64,000 nucleotides of DNA, taken from NCBI GenBank assembly GCA_001464585.1, contig LNFF01000040.1:71267-135266 (forward strand), read 5' to 3'. Source of the stretch: Gammaproteobacteria bacterium Ga0077554 (GTDB taxonomy: Bacteria; Pseudomonadota; Gammaproteobacteria; Ga0077554; Ga007554). Below are positions 27,290 through 61,428 of the stretch, one piece after another. A model generated the notes under the pieces. The model had not been told where the DNA came from. It made no database searches and saw nothing but the letters and a program-made list of their open reading frames with translations. The translations under genes and the position numbers were made by a program. Position 1 is the first letter of the stretch, and each line of letters opens with the position of its first letter.

Positions 27290-28507
27290 TTAGTGAAAAC
27301 GATCCAGCTTGATATACAAGGCACGTGTCAACGCCGTACCCTGCGGCAACTGGCCTAACAGCGTAATCAACCGCTGATGCGCGCGCAGCCGGATTTCCAC
27401 AGTATCAGCGCGCATCGCTAAAAATGCAAACAAGGCGCGTGCGCGTATCGGATGCTCTTCCGCCAGCGACTGCGCCACCGCAAACCACGGCGCAAAATCA
27501 CCCATCAATAATTGCTGCTGATTACTCAACACCTGCGCGTACGTCACATACGCATCCCACACACTGTCGTCAGTGATATTAAACAAACCTGCAAAGGCAG
27601 AGGGCGTCACGCCTTCATAGAGCGCCAACACATACTCCATTGCTTCTACACGACGCTCATGATCCCCAATCACCTTCGCCGCCTCAGCCTGCGCCACGGC
27701 CGCCAGCCCCTGTGATGCGGTGACAGGCTGCGGTGCCAATAACTGGCGCGCTTCCTGCAAAATATTTTCAGGGCGGCCACCACTGCGCAACCGCGCCAGC
27801 AAATGCAATGCAACCGCAGCGGGTTCCTGCTCCCCCGCCAATAGCGCCGCCGCTTCCGCAGCACGCTCCATCAACAACAAGACATGCGCCTGGAGCAACT
27901 GCGTTTGCACATCCTCGCCATAATCCTGCTGGTAGCGCAGCAGAGCAATGTAGGCGTCATCCACTCGTCCATCCACAATATAGCTGTGAATCACCATGCG
28001 GCGCCATTCCGAGAATAACCGACTGTCCACACCGGCAGGGTGCCAAATCAAACGCAACAGCCCTGCACGCGCGGCAGTGCCCTGGCTTGATTCGAGTTGC
28101 GCGGCAACGCCTTGAGTTAAAACCCAGCGGGTAAATGCAAGGGGTAAATTATCGGGTAACGCCTGCGTGCGACGCACTACCGACGCCCAGTCACGGCGCT
28201 GCTGATAAATTAAAATACGCGCTTTTTCCCATGCGGCCCACTCAACCGCAAGCGGGTCAATAGATGTTTGTTGCTGATCTATTATATGAAGAGCAAGCTC
28301 GGGGGCGCCTTGTTCGGCAAGGGAGATAACGTCCTGGAAGGGAGCCGTTCCTGCGCATCCTGCGCTCACGGCACTTGTGCATCCCGGCAATTGCTCCTGC
28401 ATTGCTCTACCTTCCGCCGTCCTGGCGGTCGCCTGCACAGCGTCGGCATGGGCGGCGGCGGCAAATAATCCTAACGCCGCACAAACACAGATGAGATATC
28501 GCCGCAT
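27290..28507 (-). CDS. Exported TPR-type protein with in-frame repeat insertion
   Basis: A 405-residue protein with a signal peptide (RRYLICVCAALGLFAAAAHA) and a body of Ala/Leu-rich helical repeats suggestive of TPR/Sel1-like structure; no named family was recognised. Just after the signal peptide, GRAMQEQLPGCTSAVSAGCAGTAPF is encoded by the dispersed repeat at 28344-28432. The ATG at 28507 is favoured by the signal peptide; upstream in-frame codons are probably untranslated. It is 8 bp from ogt. Likely periplasmic. Confidence 0.7.
   Translation of the reverse strand: MRRYLICVCAALGLFAAAAHADAVQATARTAEGRAMQEQLPGCTSAVSAGCAGTAPFQDVISLAEQGAPELALHIIDQQQTSIDPLAVEWAAWEKARILIYQQRRDWASVVRRTQALPDNLPLAFTRWVLTQGVAAQLESSQGTAARAGLLRLIWHPAGVDSRLFSEWRRMVIHSYIVDGRVDDAYIALLRYQQDYGEDVQTQLLQAHVLLLMERAAEAAALLAGEQEPAAVALHLLARLRSGGRPENILQEARQLLAPQPVTASQGLAAVAQAEAAKVIGDHERRVEAMEYVLALYEGVTPSAFAGLFNITDDSVWDAYVTYAQVLSNQQQLLMGDFAPWFAVAQSLAEEHPIRARALFAFLAMRADTVEIRLRAHQRLITLLGQLPQGTALTRALYIKLDRFH
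28344..28432. repeat. Mobile-like palindromic repeat, in-frame in a CDS
   Basis: It combines GCCGTTCCTGCGCATCC with CACGGCACTTGTGCATCC (shared with the copy at 39473) and the unit GGCAATTGCTCCTGCATTG..CCGCCGTCCTGGCGGTCGCC (shared with 44432-44480). The host gene stays open across it. Confidence 0.8.
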
Positions 28508-28620
28508 GCGGGTCAGCAGCGATAAAAAGTGGGGGGTAAAAAAACTAAAGGTGTTTATCTGTAACGCGGTGTCTCGCCACAACATCACATCCTCACTATG
28601 TTGCGGAATTTCTGATGCGT

Positions 28621-29909: not shown

Positions 29910-29920
29910 CACATGCACCC

Positions 29921-30066
29921 GACCGCCAAGGATGGCGGTCGCTTCCGGCATCCTGCCTCTGGCGACACTTGTGCGTCCCTGCACGGCGGAAGTGCCGAAA
30001 ACGCGCCGGGCAGGAAGCCCAAGTGCTGCGAGTGCAGGGAAGAGCGCCAGCGAAGGGTTCCACATG
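29921..30066. repeat. Composite palindromic repeat between rimM and trmD
   Basis: It begins with the hairpin GACCGCCAAGGATGGCGGTC, continues with CCGGCATCCTGCCTCTGGCG, CACTTGTGCGTCCCTGCACGG and ends with GCAGGGAAGAGCGCCAGCGAAGGGTTC, a module seen again at 55826 and 58938. It occupies most of the 192-bp gap between two genes that normally sit close together. Confidence 0.8.
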
Positions 30067-30101: not shown

Positions 30102-30680
30102 TCAATAATCTATGTCCCAGTCAACCCGCAGCACTTTGGCATCCAGATCAACACTGACGATCACACCATCAATAAAGGGGATCAGATGTTTTTTTCCAGA
30201 GGCGCCGCTCTCTTGCACCACCAACACATCATTCGCGCCCGTCTCCATAAGAGACTCTACCGTACCCAGCGGGGTGTTATCCACGCCCTGTACCTGCAAA
30301 CCGATCAGGTCGTTCCAGTAATACTCACCCTTGGAAGGCACGGGCAGTTGCGTGCGTGGAATGGCAATTTCTGCGCCCACCAGGGATCGCGCCGCTTCCG
30401 GGGTATCCCAGCCCTCAAGGCGGGCGACAATGCCTTTGCCCTGGGCGCGCCCATCTAACACAGTGACGGCGCGCCACGTCCCCTCTGGCGGTCGACCGGA
30501 AAGTTGCTCCTGCATTTCCAGCACTTCCGCCCTCCCTGGCGGTCGTATTTGCCAGGGGGCGTAGCCCAAAATATTTTCACGTGGCGCAGTATAAGAGTGG
30601 ATTTTCACCCAGCCGCGCACCCCGTAGATGCCAGAAATCTGCCCTAAAACAATCAAGTCGGAACTTTCTGCCGTGTCCAT
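30102..30680 (-). CDS. rimM: Ribosome maturation factor RimM with in-frame insertion
   Basis: A 192-residue protein: the N-terminal RimM barrel (LIVLGQISGIYGVRGWVKIHSYT), then GKGIVARLEGWDTPEAARSLVGAEIAIPR, then the PRC-barrel (EYYWNDLIGLQV; HLIPFIDGVIVSVDLDAKVLRVDWD). Between APWQI and TWRAVTVLDGR lies an extra stretch (about residues 50-68, with VLEMQEQLSGRPP) encoded by the dispersed repeat. RimM normally has only a short loop here. It assists 30S head maturation with ribosomal protein S19; the insert probably sits in a solvent-exposed loop. Confidence 0.95.
   Translation of the reverse strand: MDTAESSDLIVLGQISGIYGVRGWVKIHSYTAPRENILGYAPWQIRPPGRAEVLEMQEQLSGRPPEGTWRAVTVLDGRAQGKGIVARLEGWDTPEAARSLVGAEIAIPRTQLPVPSKGEYYWNDLIGLQVQGVDNTPLGTVESLMETGANDVLVVQESGASGKKHLIPFIDGVIVSVDLDAKVLRVDWDIDY
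30495..30545. repeat. 51-bp in-frame repeat inside rimM
   Basis: A 51-bp unit (17 codons) ending in TGGCGGTCG (30537-30545); the same nine bases stand just before it (30486-30494), like a target or end duplication. GTTGCTCCTGCATTTCCAGC and CTTCCGCCCTCCCTGGCGG match the copies at 28387 and 44432. Confidence 0.8.
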
Positions 30681-44387: not shown

Positions 44388-44495
44388 GTCATTCCGGGCA
44401 CAGCGAGGAATCTTAAGTTAGGATTTCTCCCGGCAACTGCTCCTGCGTTGCTCTACCTTCCGCCATCCATGGCGGTCGCCTTCGGTCGAAATGAC
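44388..44495. repeat. GTCATTTCGA repeat interrupted by a CDS-type repeat
   Basis: The outer copy runs from GTCATTCCGG to TCGAAATGAC. Compared with the intact copy at 28621-28704, the sequence ATTTCTCCC and the CGGTCGAAATGAC end are split by 49 extra bases (44432-44480). The gap 44227-44595 holds no gene. Confidence 0.85.
44432..44480. repeat. 49-bp CDS-type repeat unit, nested
   Basis: GGCAACTGCTCCTGCGTTGC, then CCGCCATCCATGGCGG (a perfect stem), ending GGTCGCC. The ends GGC and GCC are inverted. The same unit is found inside the TPR-type gene (28387-28432) and in rimM. Confidence 0.85.
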
Positions 44496-49085: not shown

Positions 49086-49985
49086 ATGCAAACACCTTCA
49101 GCATCGGCTTCATTCCGCTCTGCCCATCGTCTTTTAACCAGGCAGATTCTGCCTGCCATTGCGCTGTTATTGGCTTTTTGTGGATTCTCACCAGCCGTAT
49201 CAGCCGCAGACGACGCGCAGGGAAGCGCTAGTGCTGCGGGAGGCAGGATGCCGGGAGTGGCCAACGCACCCGTAGCGCCTGGCGCACCTACGCCACAAAG
49301 CGACCCTCTCGCAGATTTTTTACGTTCGCTTGAACCACGCCTGCAACAGGCCATGAGCGATTCGCTGCTCATCTACCGCAATGCGCCGCGCATCACCAAA
49401 GCCGTTGACAAAAAACGGCTGATCTTTGGCGAACCCACCACGCCTCTGCATTTGATAGAGTGGACTGACATTCGTTGCCCCCACTGCAAGCATCTCGAAG
49501 ACGCACTGAGTGAAATGCGCCGTGTCGCACCTGTCGGCTCGTGGAGCGAAGAAGCGCGCCATTTCCCACTCGATTCCGAATGCAACCCCCACGCGCAACG
49601 CTCAGATGGCAGCGGCGTCAGTTGCCTTGCGGCAAAACTGCAAATCTGCCTGGCGGGCGATGCGAAAGAATTCAACCGCGTGCGCGGCACCATGTTCAAG
49701 GAACAGCGTACCCTCACGCGTGACAGAATCTGGCAAATCACCACCACCGATACCAAGCAACGCAAAAAACTCGAAAGCTGCATTAAATCCCCGCAGACTG
49801 CAAAAACCCTGCGCGAAGACATTGACTATGCGATACAGCATAAACTTGAAGGCACGCCGCTGGTGGTGATCAACAACCGCAAAGCCACGGCATTACCGGC
49901 GATGATTTACACCATGATCATGGTCATGGGCCGCGACAACGACCCTGGCTTCAAGGTGTTGCCGCCACCCAATACACAGCCTTAA
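49086..49985 (+). CDS. Periplasmic DsbA-like thiol oxidoreductase with in-frame repeat
   Basis: A 299-residue protein with a signal peptide (about 1-41, LPAIALLLAFCGFSPAVSAA), then ADDAQGSASAAGGRMPGVAN encoded by the dispersed repeat, then a thioredoxin domain with IEWTDIRCPHCKHLEDAL (CPHC active site as in DsbA) and EGTPLVVINN (cis-Pro). Two further cysteine pairs may exist in the helical insert. It likely catalyses disulfide exchange in the periplasm; which partner (DsbB or other) is not visible. Confidence 0.85.
   Translation: MQTPSASASFRSAHRLLTRQILPAIALLLAFCGFSPAVSAADDAQGSASAAGGRMPGVANAPVAPGAPTPQSDPLADFLRSLEPRLQQAMSDSLLIYRNAPRITKAVDKKRLIFGEPTTPLHLIEWTDIRCPHCKHLEDALSEMRRVAPVGSWSEEARHFPLDSECNPHAQRSDGSGVSCLAAKLQICLAGDAKEFNRVRGTMFKEQRTLTRDRIWQITTTDTKQRKKLESCIKSPQTAKTLREDIDYAIQHKLEGTPLVVINNRKATALPAMIYTMIMVMGRDNDPGFKVLPPPNTQP
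49213..49262. repeat. In-frame repeat after the signal peptide
   Basis: CGCAGGGAAGCGCTAGTGC and GGGAGGCAGGATGCCGGGAG give the GGRMPG peptide. The nucleotide sequence matches the copies at 58938 and 61178 nearly base for base, far beyond the protein context. Confidence 0.88.
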
Positions 49986-53637: not shown

Positions 53638-56004
53638 TTACCTGCTTATTACCGCACGGCGCGCAGCCTCAATATGCGATGATGGTGTAATGCCCAATAC
53701 CGTGGAAAATACGGTGTGGCAACGCTGGTAAACACTCAACGCTTCAGCACAACGCCCCTGCCGTTGATAACAGAGCATGAGACGCTGATAAAGAATCTCG
53801 GCAAGCGGATCAATTTCCAAACCTTTGCGATAACTGTTAATGGCTTTTTCCCATTGGCCAATATCTTCGTTGTGCTTGCCGGTTTGTTCCAGATAACGCA
53901 GAAACTTGCTGCGCAGGCGTTCACGTAATGCCAGCGCCCAGGCGTAGTCATTGTCGTCACCTAAAAAATGTCCCTGATAAATCTCCAGCGCTTTTTCCAC
54001 CAGTGATGCAGTATATGTGGCTGGCGGCTGGCTGAAAAATTGCTCTAACGCCCACACATCTACCCAGCAACAGGAGGTATCCAGGGTAAGGCTATTATCA
54101 CGCATAATAATGGCTTTTTCATGACCCAGCATGTGGCGCAGACGATGCAGGGTGACGCGAAACACTTGATGACCGGCATCGCCTTCGGCATCAGGCCATA
54201 GGGCATCAATGATCTGGGTTTCGTTGACATCGCGCGCGCCCAGAGCGATCAGCGCCTTGAGCAGCAACAGCGGTTTGCCTTGGGCTTTACTTTGATTTTT
54301 GCTGGGATCCTGGCCCTCAAAATTCAGCGGCTCACCGGCTTTGACAATACGAAAATGTCCCAATGTATAAATTTTTATCGGCCACGGCCAATTCTGGCAC
54401 TCTACTGAGGATGTCGGCGGTTGCAGGCCATGTTTTTTTATATAATGGCGTACGTATTCTACTTCTATGCCATTTTCCAGTGCTTTTTTGCACAACAGTG
54501 CGATGGCGCAGGGCCGTAGCGTTGGCATGCTGGCATAGCCATGCTTTCTGGCCAACGCAAAAGCTTTGCTCAAGGTAAGCGCACCACGTTCCTCGGCCAC
54601 TCCCGGCATCCTGCCTCTAGTGACACTTGTGCATCCATGCACAGCGAATGAACGCATGAAGCGGAATTGCGCTTCATGCAGGAGGGTAAGATATTCAACA
54701 TATTTGCTCTGCGTGACAATAGCGTAAGTGCGGGTATATGCGAGATGCCGCAGGGCTTCACGACGGCCACCATATTCAAATAATACTTGCGCCAATAGTG
54801 CATGGCACAAGGCTTGGGCATAAGGCGCAGCGGCAGCCTCAGCGAGCGTTAACGCGAGCCGGGCATGCTCGATGGCGCGCGGCAGGTCATGCTGGCTGGC
54901 ACTGTTCCACGCCAACAGGTAATGGTAATGGCTGGCATCAAGATGGCGGGTGGCGATGAGCAAGGTGCCGAGGTTGCCTAAAAACCCCTGCGCGGCCTCA
55001 CGGTTTCCTTTTACCAGCGCGGCTTGTACACCGAGCGCATATAATTGAAAATCGCCACTGTGCGCGCCCGAATTACGCGCAATTTCCAGACCCTCAGTCA
55101 CAGCTTCCAGGCAGGCGTCCGCAGAGACGCGCATCAAACTGTAAAGCGCCTGGCTGATCTGCCATTCCACTTGAATTGCCGCGCTGGGGTTATCCGCCTG
55201 AGCTTTAAGAGTGTGCAGCACCCAGGCGGTAGCCGCCGTGTCACCCTTGTGCAGATAATGCAAAAACAGCCGGTTGCCCAGTATAAATTGCTGGTTAATC
55301 TCCAAACCGCATTGCAGCAATTGCCGGGCGCGCTGTTCCCAGAACGATACGTCAGGATGCTGCGGTTGATGCTGCGTCAATGCGCCTAGCATGGCCTGTG
55401 TGACGCGGGCTTCCAGCTCCAGCGACGGAAACGTGGGGTGGTCGCGCAGAATGTCACCCAGCGCCGCTATCCACCCCTCCAGCGGGCTAAAGTCGGTACG
55501 GCTGAGTAGAATGCTGTCTACGATGCCAACCCACGCATGCAACATGCCTGATATAGTTTGATGAGTCGTGCCACGCGTATTTTGATCATGGAATACGCGG
55601 TACGCCTGCTCAAAATCGGCGCGCCCCTGCTCGGGGCTCAGCGGCATGCAGCATACGCCACTCCAGTAGAGCAACCAGGGATTGGTTTCCAGTACCTTGC
55701 GCGGTAAACGCCGCAATCTGCCTTCCAGCGTCTGCAGGCGCCCCTGTGCGGCCAGGCCAGCGGCTTGATGACACACTACCTGGGCAACGGTCTGCCAATC
55801 GACCACGGGCACCAAATCCGCCACACAGGGAAGAGCGCCAGCGAAGGGTTCTGTAAGTGCTGAGTGAGGCAGGATGCCGGAAGCAACCGCTTCCATGGTC
55901 GTAATCTGCCCGGCAATACTGCTGGCAGAAGCTGGCTTATGATTGCCATGGTAGCGTGGCATAATTCGTTTAGTAAAATTAATCAAAGAAAATGTGTGTT
56001 CCAT
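53638..56004 (-). CDS. BTAD-type transcriptional regulator with two in-frame repeats
   Basis: A 788-residue protein. The long N-terminal part (about 80-510) is built of helical TPR-like repeats; then comes a winged-helix domain (WPIKIYTLGHFRIVKAGEPL; LLLLKALIALGARDVNETQI; LHRLRHMLGHEKAI) and a C-terminal BTAD with TPRs (ALEIYQGHFLGDDNDYAWAL; YRKGLEIDPLAEILYQRLM). [18 protein letters not shown] (about 44) and GCTSVTRGRMPGVAEE (about 463) are repeat-encoded. It looks like a MalT/SARP-related activator without ATPase. It is divergent from moxR and probably controls this cluster or the Bat operon (inference). Confidence 0.78.
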   Translation of the reverse strand: MEHTFSLINFTKRIMPRYHGNHKPASASSIAGQITTMEAVASGILPHSALTEPFAGALPCVADLVPVVDWQTVAQVVCHQAAGLAAQGRLQTLEGRLRRLPRKVLETNPWLLYWSGVCCMPLSPEQGRADFEQAYRVFHDQNTRGTTHQTISGMLHAWVGIVDSILLSRTDFSPLEGWIAALGDILRDHPTFPSLELEARVTQAMLGALTQHQPQHPDVSFWEQRARQLLQCGLEINQQFILGNRLFLHYLHKGDTAATAWVLHTLKAQADNPSAAIQVEWQISQALYSLMRVSADACLEAVTEGLEIARNSGAHSGDFQLYALGVQAALVKGNREAAQGFLGNLGTLLIATRHLDASHYHYLLAWNSASQHDLPRAIEHARLALTLAEAAAAPYAQALCHALLAQVLFEYGGRREALRHLAYTRTYAIVTQSKYVEYLTLLHEAQFRFMRSFAVHGCTSVTRGRMPGVAEERGALTLSKAFALARKHGYASMPTLRPCAIALLCKKALENGIEVEYVRHYIKKHGLQPPTSSVECQNWPWPIKIYTLGHFRIVKAGEPLNFEGQDPSKNQSKAQGKPLLLLKALIALGARDVNETQIIDALWPDAEGDAGHQVFRVTLHRLRHMLGHEKAIIMRDNSLTLDTSCCWVDVWALEQFFSQPPATYTASLVEKALEIYQGHFLGDDNDYAWALALRERLRSKFLRYLEQTGKHNEDIGQWEKAINSYRKGLEIDPLAEILYQRLMLCYQRQGRCAEALSVYQRCHTVFSTVLGITPSSHIEAARRAVISR
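54597..54645. repeat. In-frame repeat in the BTAD regulator (3' copy)
   Basis: CACTCCCGGCATCCTGCCTC and CACTTGTGCATCCATGCAC are the family core on the plus strand; the minus-strand host reads through it as RGRMPGVA. Confidence 0.85.
55826..55890. repeat. In-frame repeat in the BTAD regulator (5' copy)
   Basis: CAGGGAAGAGCGCCAGCGAA, GGGTTCTGTAAGTGC and GGCAGGATGCCGGAAGC follow on the plus strand. The host gene reads the opposite strand and still stays open ([18 protein letters not shown]). Confidence 0.85.
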
Positions 56005-58606: not shown

Positions 58607-59674
58607 ATGTTAGAGCTTGCCGCACCGTGGTGGTTGCTTGCCGTGCCGTTACCGTGGCTGGCGTGGTGGTGGAGCGTGCGGCTTAAGTCCGAGAGGTTCA
58701 CACTCGCTACCGTCCCAGCCATACGGCATGCGCAAGCAGATGTACTGTTCAACCTCGTTGGTAACACCCGCCCACACATTAACCGTACCCCTTGGCTATG
58801 GATCATCGGCTGCGTCTGTCTCGTGCTTGCGCTGGCACGTCCACAATGGAGTGAGTCAGCGCCCAACACTTATAAGGGACGCGATTTCCTGCTGGCGCTG
58901 GATGTATCTGGCTCAATGCGCGCGCAAGACTTCGACGCACAGGGAAGAGCGCAAGCGAAGGGTTCTGCAAGTGCCGAGGGAGGCAGGATGCCGGGAGCGG
59001 CCGAGACAAATGGCGCCACCCTAAGCCGTCTCGACATGCTGAAAAAAATCGTCAACCAGTTTCTCAGTGAACGCCACGGCGACCGCATCGGCTTGATTGT
59101 GTTCGCTGACGATGCCTACACGTTATCACCACTCACCAGCGACATGAATATAGTACGCAGCCTGTTGCAAGAAGTGCGTCATGGCATGGCGGGCGAAAAA
59201 ACTGCGCTGGGCACGGCGATGGCACTTGCCGTAAAGCGCCTGCAAGACCGTGATGCCAAAGCCCGTGTATTGATCCTGCTCACCGATGGCAGTAATACTG
59301 CCGGAGAAATCCATCCCGACGCAGCAGCGGCACTCGCTGCTGAAGAAGGCATCCGCATTTACACAGTGGGCATCGGTTCGCATCAAACCGTACCCTTTCC
59401 GCGCGGCCCGAATGAAAAACCTGCCTACACTGAAATGCCACTCGATGAACACTTGCTACGCCGCATTGCCGAACGCACCCAAGGCCGTTACTATGCCGCC
59501 GCGAATACTACTGAAGTCCAGCGCATTATTGGCGATATAGAAAAACTTGAAAAAATAGATATTACAGATAACGCATTATTAAAACACACTGAATGGTACT
59601 GGTTACCACTCAGTGCTGGATTGACGTTACTCCTGGTGTCGCAACGCCGCGCGCGCAACGAGGTATTGCCGTGA
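58607..59674 (+). CDS. batA: BatA-type VWA membrane protein with in-frame repeat
   Basis: A 355-residue protein with membrane helices near residues 5-20 and 65-80 and a third near the C-terminus. The VWA MIDAS motif is FLLALDVSGSMRAQDF. Directly behind it DAQGRAQAKGSASAEGGRMP is encoded by the dispersed repeat, after which SRLDMLKKIVNQFLSERHGDRIGLIVFADDAYT resumes the domain. BatB in this operon has no such insert. It likely works with MoxR at the inner membrane in stress tolerance. Confidence 0.92.
   Translation: MLELAAPWWLLAVPLPWLAWWWSVRLKSERFTLATVPAIRHAQADVLFNLVGNTRPHINRTPWLWIIGCVCLVLALARPQWSESAPNTYKGRDFLLALDVSGSMRAQDFDAQGRAQAKGSASAEGGRMPGAAETNGATLSRLDMLKKIVNQFLSERHGDRIGLIVFADDAYTLSPLTSDMNIVRSLLQEVRHGMAGEKTALGTAMALAVKRLQDRDAKARVLILLTDGSNTAGEIHPDAAAALAAEEGIRIYTVGIGSHQTVPFPRGPNEKPAYTEMPLDEHLLRRIAERTQGRYYAAANTTEVQRIIGDIEKLEKIDITDNALLKHTEWYWLPLSAGLTLLLVSQRRARNEVLP
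58938..59005. repeat. In-frame repeat in batA
   Basis: CACAGGGAAGAGCGCAAGCG, AAGGGTTCTGCAAGTGCC and GAGGGAGGCAGGATGCCGGG are contiguous and match the copies at 55826 and 49213. They interrupt the VWA domain between MIDAS and the following helix. Confidence 0.88.
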
Positions 59675-61428
59675 TTCCACAGCTGGAGTGGCGCGAACCA
59701 TTATGGTTGTTGTTAGCCATCATCCCATGGCTGGGCTTGGCCCGGATGGGATGGGGGCGCAATAAAAAAACCTCAGCGCAGCAGGAACGTCGTAACGCCT
59801 TTGCCGACTCACATCTATGGCAATACCTTATTTTAGGGCAAGGCAAATCAAACCCCACCTTCCATGAAAAAAACCGGCTTGCATGGATAGCCGCATGGAC
59901 ATTGGCAGCACTGGCAGCCAGCGGCCCATCCATGCAAACACAACTACCTGATACCACGGCGCAAGCCAGCGGCATTGACATCGCGGTGGCGATCGACATC
60001 TCGCCCTCCATGTCAGTGCAGGATATTACCCCCAACCGCCTGGAACGCGCCAAACTGGAATTGCGCGATTTCGTTAGCCGCTTAAATGGCGATCGTGTGG
60101 CACTGATTGCATTTTCTGCCAATGCTTACGTGACACTACCATTAACACCCGACACAGCAACTTTTCTAAACTTTTCTGATCTCCTCGACCCTGGCCTGGT
60201 GATCAAGCACGGCTCCAATATTGCGCGCGCATTATTGATGGCACGTCAAACGCTGGAAGGTGCTGAACAACAAAGCCGCGCCATTATCTTAATCACTGAC
60301 GGCGAATCCCACAACAGCGCAGCCGCCCTGGCAGAAGCAAATACATTGCGCGCCCTGGGCATTCCACTGTTCATTGTCGGTGTCGGCACTGACGCAGGTG
60401 GCCCTGTGCCCGATGGCAAGGGACACTTTATGAAAATAAAAGATGAGCTGGTTGTTTCACGACTGGAGCGCGCCACACTGACATCGTTGGCGCAGAAAAC
60501 TGGCGGGCTTTACCTTGACATCAGCAGCGATGACAGCGAGTGGCAGAAATTATTTACCCAGTTGCGTAAACTTAAACCTGCCCAATATTCTCACGACACA
60601 CCGGAGCAACATTACCAACTCTTTCCCTGGCTGCTTGGAATCAGTCTGTTACTGTTCCTGTGGGCAGGTGCGCGACAAGGTACGCTCGCATTACTTGCCT
60701 GGGCCATGGTGATGCCTTTGATGGGATTGCCTGGAAAAGCTCATGCAACGCCCTGGGCAGAACAACGCGCACTGGACGCGCTCAATGAAAATAACTACGA
60801 AAAAGCCACAACGCTATATCGCGGCATAAAATCATTTAATGGCCTGATGGGCCTGGGCGCCAGCGCTTATCGTCAACAACAATGGGAAGTGGCGCTGAGC
60901 GCCTTTCAGCAGGCATCGCGTAATGCCAGCAGCGACACCGAGCGCGCCCAGGCCAGTTATAATACCGGCAATACCCTGGTGAAAATGAACCGCCTCGACG
61001 AAGCGGCCCGCACTTATGAAACCGCGCTCCGCTGGCAAAAAAATTATCCACGTGCCGCGCTTAATCTAACCCTGATCAATAAAGAAAAAGAATTTCGTGC
61101 CCACATTAAATCAGGAGCCGGGGAAACAGGTGACCAGAAAAAAACACCAGCCCTGAACACAGCCACCCAATCTGACGACGCGCAGGGACGCGCTAGTGCC
61201 GTGGGAGGCAGGATGCCGGGAGCGGCAAAAAATGACACTGGGCTTCAACAGGAAAAAACAACCACTGGCGATCCTTCTCAGGATTCAGGGAAAACATATA
61301 AAACATCAAAAACCCGAGAAAAAATGCAAGCCCTGCGTGAAAATTCCCAGGAATTATTGAGCAATCGCTTTTCTACTGCTGACAAATTCTCTGGCGTGCT
61401 GGTGGTAGAGGATGAAAAGCCATGGTAA
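59671..61428 (+). CDS. batB: BatB/BatC-type VWA-TPR protein with in-frame repeat
   Basis: A 585-residue fusion of a VWA domain and TPRs. Membrane helices near 10-25, 60-80, 315-335; VWA MIDAS DIAVAIDISPSMSVQDITP; two TPR units around 400-470 (NTGNTLVKMNRLDEAARTYE). A low-complexity tail contains SDDAQGRASAVGGRMPGAAK from the repeat. The GTG start at 59671 overlaps the batA stop (GTGA) and has GAGG upstream. Confidence 0.9.
   Translation: MIPQLEWREPLWLLLAIIPWLGLARMGWGRNKKTSAQQERRNAFADSHLWQYLILGQGKSNPTFHEKNRLAWIAAWTLAALAASGPSMQTQLPDTTAQASGIDIAVAIDISPSMSVQDITPNRLERAKLELRDFVSRLNGDRVALIAFSANAYVTLPLTPDTATFLNFSDLLDPGLVIKHGSNIARALLMARQTLEGAEQQSRAIILITDGESHNSAAALAEANTLRALGIPLFIVGVGTDAGGPVPDGKGHFMKIKDELVVSRLERATLTSLAQKTGGLYLDISSDDSEWQKLFTQLRKLKPAQYSHDTPEQHYQLFPWLLGISLLLFLWAGARQGTLALLAWAMVMPLMGLPGKAHATPWAEQRALDALNENNYEKATTLYRGIKSFNGLMGLGASAYRQQQWEVALSAFQQASRNASSDTERAQASYNTGNTLVKMNRLDEAARTYETALRWQKNYPRAALNLTLINKEKEFRAHIKSGAGETGDQKKTPALNTATQSDDAQGRASAVGGRMPGAAKNDTGLQQEKTTTGDPSQDSGKTYKTSKTREKMQALRENSQELLSNRFSTADKFSGVLVVEDEKPW
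61178..61227. repeat. In-frame repeat in batB tail
   Basis: CGCGCAGGGACGCGCTAGTG and CGTGGGAGGCAGGATGCCGG encode QGRASAVGGRMPG. It is nearly identical to the copy at 49213 though the surrounding proteins are unrelated. Confidence 0.88.

Follow-up and report, generated by a model that had tools for sequence, protein, structure and literature searches.

The rimM gene in the window (the whole analysed stretch of 64,000 nucleotides from Gammaproteobacteria bacterium Ga0077554) contains a 17-codon insert that is very probably a copy of a non-autonomous mobile palindromic element, which moved into a loop of the RimM protein within the lineage of this species. The element belongs to a repeat family, has a folded structure that co-varies, is read in frame, has empty sites in related genomes and is not accompanied by a target-site duplication. 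The coordinates of the gene, the insert and the related units are given in Table 1.

The ORF scores 148 bits against the NCBIfam equivalog model TIGR02273, which is above the cut-off of 66.2, and is also matched by the Pfam families RimM and PRC_RimM. It is the only RimM match in its genome, in agreement with the original prediction, which had treated the gene as single-copy. Two copies of the 9-mer TGGCGGTCG were found exactly where they had been predicted, at 30486-30494 and 30537-30545 with a spacing of 51 bp, and both are part of a longer match with the same spacing (two similar 18-mers, CGTCCCCTCTGGCGGTCG and CGCCCTCCCTGGCGGTCG). In the window, the 9-mer occurs six times compared to 0.73 expected occurrences; this number was reached in 0 of 100 shuffles and thus indicates a repeat family. 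The predicted 17-codon insertion was borne out, with the unit now refined to the interval in Table 1, and its proposed membership in a repeat family holds as well, with matches elsewhere in the window (28384-28431 and 44430-44478) and in the rest of the genome.

Table 1. Position, strand and supporting evidence of the rimM insert and related features in the window
Feature	Position	Strand	Evidence
rimM, ribosome maturation factor RimM, 192 aa, insert-bearing	30102..30680	(-)	ORF list, NCBIfam, Pfam
Two-hairpin 51-bp element (17 codons), in-frame reading RPPGRAEVLEMQEQLSG	30495..30545	(-)	Covariance model R1, 75 bits; copies elsewhere
First hairpin of the element (P), stem CCGCC/GGCGG	30527..30542	(-)	Fold and covariation
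Second hairpin of the element (H), variable co-varying stem, conserved loop TGCAGGAGCA	30495..30522	(-)	Fold and covariation
Putative decayed head of a second tandem unit, CGACCGCCAGAGGGGACG	30477..30494	(-)	Comparison with tandem units
45-bp sister unit, in frame in ORF 27293-28588	28387..28431	(-)	Covariance model, host classification
46-bp sister unit, without host gene, nested in another repeat	44433..44478	(-)	Covariance model, host classification
Solitary palindromic head CGACCGCCAAGGATGGCGGTCG upstream of trmD, with a longer repeat module behind it	29920..29941	(+)	Sequence, matches, covariance model

The unit of about 51 bp forms two hairpins, of which P has the form CGACCGCCA-NGGA-TGGCGG and H is a variable stem around TGCAGGAGCA. 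The sequence of the H stem is free, but its two sides co-vary. The alignment used to assess covariation comprises 78 matches (68 distinct ones) drawn from the family and from distant genomes; 94% of its cells pair, and changes on both sides were found in 14 of 17 pairs. Both-side changes affect 123 cells, whereas shuffles gave 34.3 (sd 5.9) and slid controls no more than 31; the alignment was fitted to the model and thus favours its structure. The raw stems around TGCAGGAGCA, taken from rows found by the model but without using its pairing, co-vary as well (GCTGGAAA/TTTCCAGC, GTCGATAA/TTATCGAC, GCCGGTTT/AAACCGGT). Judged by eye, the ends of the element, CGACC and CCAGC, are not mutual reverse complements and do not form terminal inverted repeats. 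P is followed by AAGT in 44 of the 68 distinct copies; immediately 3' of the element, 48 of 61 flanked copies have a C.

A BLAST search of the 51-bp unit against its own genome returned 31 matches at E ≤ 1, with 94% identity over 52 bp between the rimM unit and a copy in polA. The covariance model R1, which was built from eight copies that match it by construction, yielded 62 matches at E ≤ 0.1 in this genome, 17 of them above 50 bits; many of the weaker matches represent a second form of 46-47 bp, for which no named host gene was found. At the same threshold there were 24 matches in the sister genome (G002), 17 in a third species of the genus (G001), and 10, 5 and 3 in G005, G003 and G006, respectively, with none in G004 and G007. 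By this model, matches exist in both congeners and in three of five further family members. Of 274 genomes sampled across the class, 27 were matched at E ≤ 1e-4; the copies that were read are mostly 50 bp long, and several are nested in other palindromes. Copies in L267, L269 and L272 lie within the loop of a GTCATTCCCGCG...GCGGGAAT-like palindrome, which suggests that the element prefers hairpin targets. Tandem arrays with an exact spacing of 51 bp occur in two other genomes of the class (L268:1501-1805, L274:1501-1688, L263:1-178). Named plasmids and phages searched with the polA copy gave no match, and the 24-base consensus core was seen in two viral contigs (L306 and L307).

Further repeats were observed in the window. 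The 45-bp sister unit stands directly after the signal-peptide-like start of its ORF (432 aa), and a cytochrome c gene of G001 (L238) carries a 45-bp unit whose peptide is identical. Immediately upstream of trmD, the segment 29920-30060 contains a perfect palindrome together with a longer repeat module; the longest ORF call of trmD extends into this repeat, and its start is probably wrong. Another palindromic module (CGGCATCCTGCCTC...) is found at 49209-49264, 54594-54646, 55819-55890, 58933-59004 and 61174-61229, and in composite copies it is situated between both hairpins of the element found in RimM.

We manually classified 104 of the 121 covariance-model matches, leaving out the 17 weakest, and set aside 18 with unnamed or doubtful ORFs for the length test (13 of these 18 have a length divisible by three). 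Such a length was found in 28 of the 30 copies with a named host gene, among which orthologous sites recur, compared to 6 of the 56 copies without one (Fisher 1.4e-14). Copies of at least 45 bits gave 25 of 26 versus 3 of 10 (p 1e-4). Two named-host copies of 50 bp are located in the N-terminal regions of surA and tonB. At 24 host sites, four of the six reading frames are used (9, 9, 5 and 1 times), with a simulated P of 0.0009 under even use; the two unused frames encode peptides rich in Cys, Trp and Phe. Selection against harmful insertions would be expected to produce such a bias in frame and length, which speaks for translation of the insert.

Hosts identified by Pfam or NCBIfam in the genome itself include polA, aspS, mfd, pyrB (at the C-terminus), traD, hemX, a flippase and a glycosyltransferase, as well as uvrD and a ChuX/HemS protein. 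Relatives have copies in dsbC, a Mur ligase, ATP sulfurylase/APS kinase, a DEAD-box helicase, peptide deformylase (def), Leu/Phe-tRNA transferase (aat), proS (twice), ShlB, SurA and TonB; where a copy is near a terminus of its host, it may lie partly outside the true reading frame. Empty sites in relatives were found for rimM, aspS, uvrD and mfd. The aspS insert is common to the window's genome, G001 and G002, and the genera g2 and g3 are empty; the gain relative to them amounts to 17 residues. At one site in uvrD, the window's genome and G002 differ in insert length, and G001 and the aligned g2 loci are empty. The mfd insert was found only in the window's genome when compared to five aligned relatives; a search for the mfd orthologue in G002 and G007 found none. 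In polA, the insert occupies a variable linker and is present in the window's genome and in G002. For peptide deformylase, Aat and UvrD, the insert is visible against solved structures, and in the deformylase it comprises 17 residues. A 66-bp (22-codon) variant of the element was observed in coding genes (L017, L019, L208 and L211); in uvrD, this variant occupies the position of the 51-bp form in the sister genome. The insert in G001 aspS (L146) has a further module nested within it and is still in frame.

For RimM itself, the alignment across relatives that had been proposed as a check was carried out with the window protein and 105 loci, one of which (L031) is the window's own genome and some of which duplicate one genome, e.g. 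L032 and L061. The 51-bp unit is present in none of the 104 other loci, and G001 is empty. The insertion is thus known from one assembly only; sharing of the insert by all relatives, which had been named in advance as the refuting outcome, was not observed. The stretch bounded by the flanking Ile and Trp comprises 23 residues in the window RimM, 10 in G002, 5 in G001 and about 5 in most other RimMs; at the insert site, the window gene thus exceeds that of G001 by 18 codons and that of G002 by 13. In the DNA of G002 rimM, the palindromic head CGACCGCCAGGGATGGCGTCG stands alone at the same place. The dN/dS ratio between the window and sister genes is 0.20 (167 codons, insert excluded). An AlphaFold2 model (42 sequences) has a mean pLDDT of 87.4, with about 50 in the insert block between strands 43-46 and 70-72. 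By this evidence, RimM appears to be still functional and under purifying selection, and the insert is predicted to be placed in a low-confidence loop. The folded protein apparently tolerates the insertion, as the original prediction had supposed.

These results are consistent with the following course of events. A two-hairpin element of about 51 bp would have moved into the RimM loop within the lineage of this species. The rimM site may first have received at least a head, such as the solitary one still found in the sister genome; the 51-bp unit may then have been gained or lost either by a change in the number of tandem units or by insertion beside that head. With a length of 51 bp, a multiple of three, an insert that is open in most frames and does not duplicate target bases could leave the protein working with 17 additional residues. 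Insertion into such a tolerant loop would yield a working protein and harmful insertions would be lost, as the frame and length bias suggests. Two hairpins and the absence of a target duplication recall single-strand transposition, and the element may move as folded single-stranded DNA by means of an enzyme.

The origin of the 9-bp direct repeat allows several readings. CGACCGCCA is the head of the element, is part of the consensus of most copies, and recurs at the start of each next unit in the tandem pairs L004, L005 and L011 and in the arrays L268, L274 and L263. In rimM, the 51-bp unit is followed by CGACCGCCAGAGGGGACG, the first nine bases of which are the second copy of the repeat; in L004, L005 and L011, another unit or head likewise lies directly behind. 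Among 61 distinct flanked copies, no target-site duplication of 2-7 bp was found at single copies, and matches occurred only within tandem arrays. Because the head recurs in tandem units and single copies have no duplication, the direct repeat is best read as two unit heads and not as an insertion scar. The earlier idea that it records the insertion mechanism was thus not upheld, while the suggestion of slippage survives in part: a changed number of tandem 51-bp units fits, but duplication of the unit's end alone would leave the tandem pairs of the family unexplained. A cut-and-paste, transposon-like insertion would account for the two identical 9-mers that flank the rest of the unit. However, the 9-mer lies within the element's consensus, and the aspS gain compared to the empty site is exactly 17 residues. 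As copies in unrelated targets are free of 2-7 bp duplications, we rejected this extremely improbable explanation. Local slippage that duplicated native RimM sequence, with the likeness to repeats being secondary, would produce two similar 18-mers at a spacing of 51 bp, but the entire unit with both hairpins recurs in unrelated genes such as polA; we rejected it too, and its probability is practically negligible. A variant of our preferred explanation is that rimM already carried the P head when the 51-bp unit inserted beside or into it in this lineage. The solitary head in the sister genome and the nesting of elements in other palindromic repeats favor this order, but deletion of a unit in the sister would give the same picture and tandem units are common in the family; the empty G001 site fits both a head-first gain and a loss from a tandem pair. 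We consider the variant quite possible, at somewhat less than an even chance; under it, the direct repeat would reflect homology of the element to its target instead of an old tandem array.

Mobile DNA that is translated as part of RimM also has to be weighed against an element that leaves the protein unchanged, because it is cut out of the message like an intron or passed over by the ribosome as in translational bypass. The bypass in T4 gene 60 is a comparable case, in that the present element likewise places hairpins in a coding region and measures close to 50 nt. A skipped element would be free of frame constraint, yet the lengths of the named-host copies are divisible by three with two exceptions and two of six frames are unused; in addition, none of five loci searched against Rfam at E ≤ 0.5 was matched. 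We regard this possibility as very improbable. An ordinary REP element that depends on a RAYT transposase is suggested by the short hairpins, by the intragenic copies in repair genes and tRNA synthetases, which resemble those described in PMC3733652, and by the Y1 transposase matches in the genome. However, the tag GTAG is found in only 7 and CGTC in 2 of the 68 distinct copies, no element modules were found beside the four Y1 loci examined, and PF01797 (Y1) is not significantly more common in element-bearing genomes (22 of 27 versus 164 of 247 others in the sample of 274, p 0.13). We consider this reading unlikely; the four loci, and the survey of 274 genomes with its weak association, gave no support for Y1/RAYT as the mover and revealed no mobilizing enzyme. 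More speculatively, the element may have a coding-adapted form, with mostly 50 bp in intergenic and 51 bp in intragenic copies and most frames open, which spreads through the proteome of the clade, housekeeping proteins included. It would insert cleanly without target duplication, often beside or within other hairpins, as a folded single strand moved by a hitherto undescribed enzyme. We hold this to be possible but rather doubtful.

Several known systems resemble the family. Palindromic selfish repeats that are in frame in unrelated protein genes are described for Rickettsia and Wolbachia in PMC10969869, PMC3767692 and PMC4224334; RPEs are reported there in Rickettsiales, with a length of about 100-150 bp (PMC3767692). 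Our element is likewise an in-frame palindromic repeat within protein genes, but with 50-51 bp, two hairpins and a gammaproteobacterial host it differs from the RPEs as they have been described. Intragenic GTAG/CGTC REPs, as presented in PMC3733652 for several species, are also small hairpin repeats in genes, share the hosts uvrD, polA and tRNA synthetases, and form dimers and nest in other palindromes. In contrast, the present unit as a rule has no GTAG or CGTC tag, and its H stem is free in sequence and co-varying. MITEs and enterobacterial repeat units are equally short and non-autonomous, and sometimes translated when intragenic, according to PMC10969869 and PMC2759123; unlike MITEs, the unit has neither terminal inverted repeats nor a target-site duplication. 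Five consensus strings of the element were looked for in the papers searched, and none of them occurs there. The family thus appears to be an undescribed variant of known intragenic palindromes such as RPEs and GTAG/CGTC REPs.

The family provides a case outside the Rickettsiales in which a selfish palindrome repeatedly adds peptide segments to core proteins, and empty sites in sister genomes date the insertion events. It thereby opens several questions to testing: the amount of foreign sequence that a folded protein will take up, the possibility that inserts of this kind acquire a use, and the identity of the enzyme behind the movement of a tiny hairpin element. The finding also calls for caution, as mobile DNA instead of adaptation can underlie the inserts that set the essential proteins of a clade apart.
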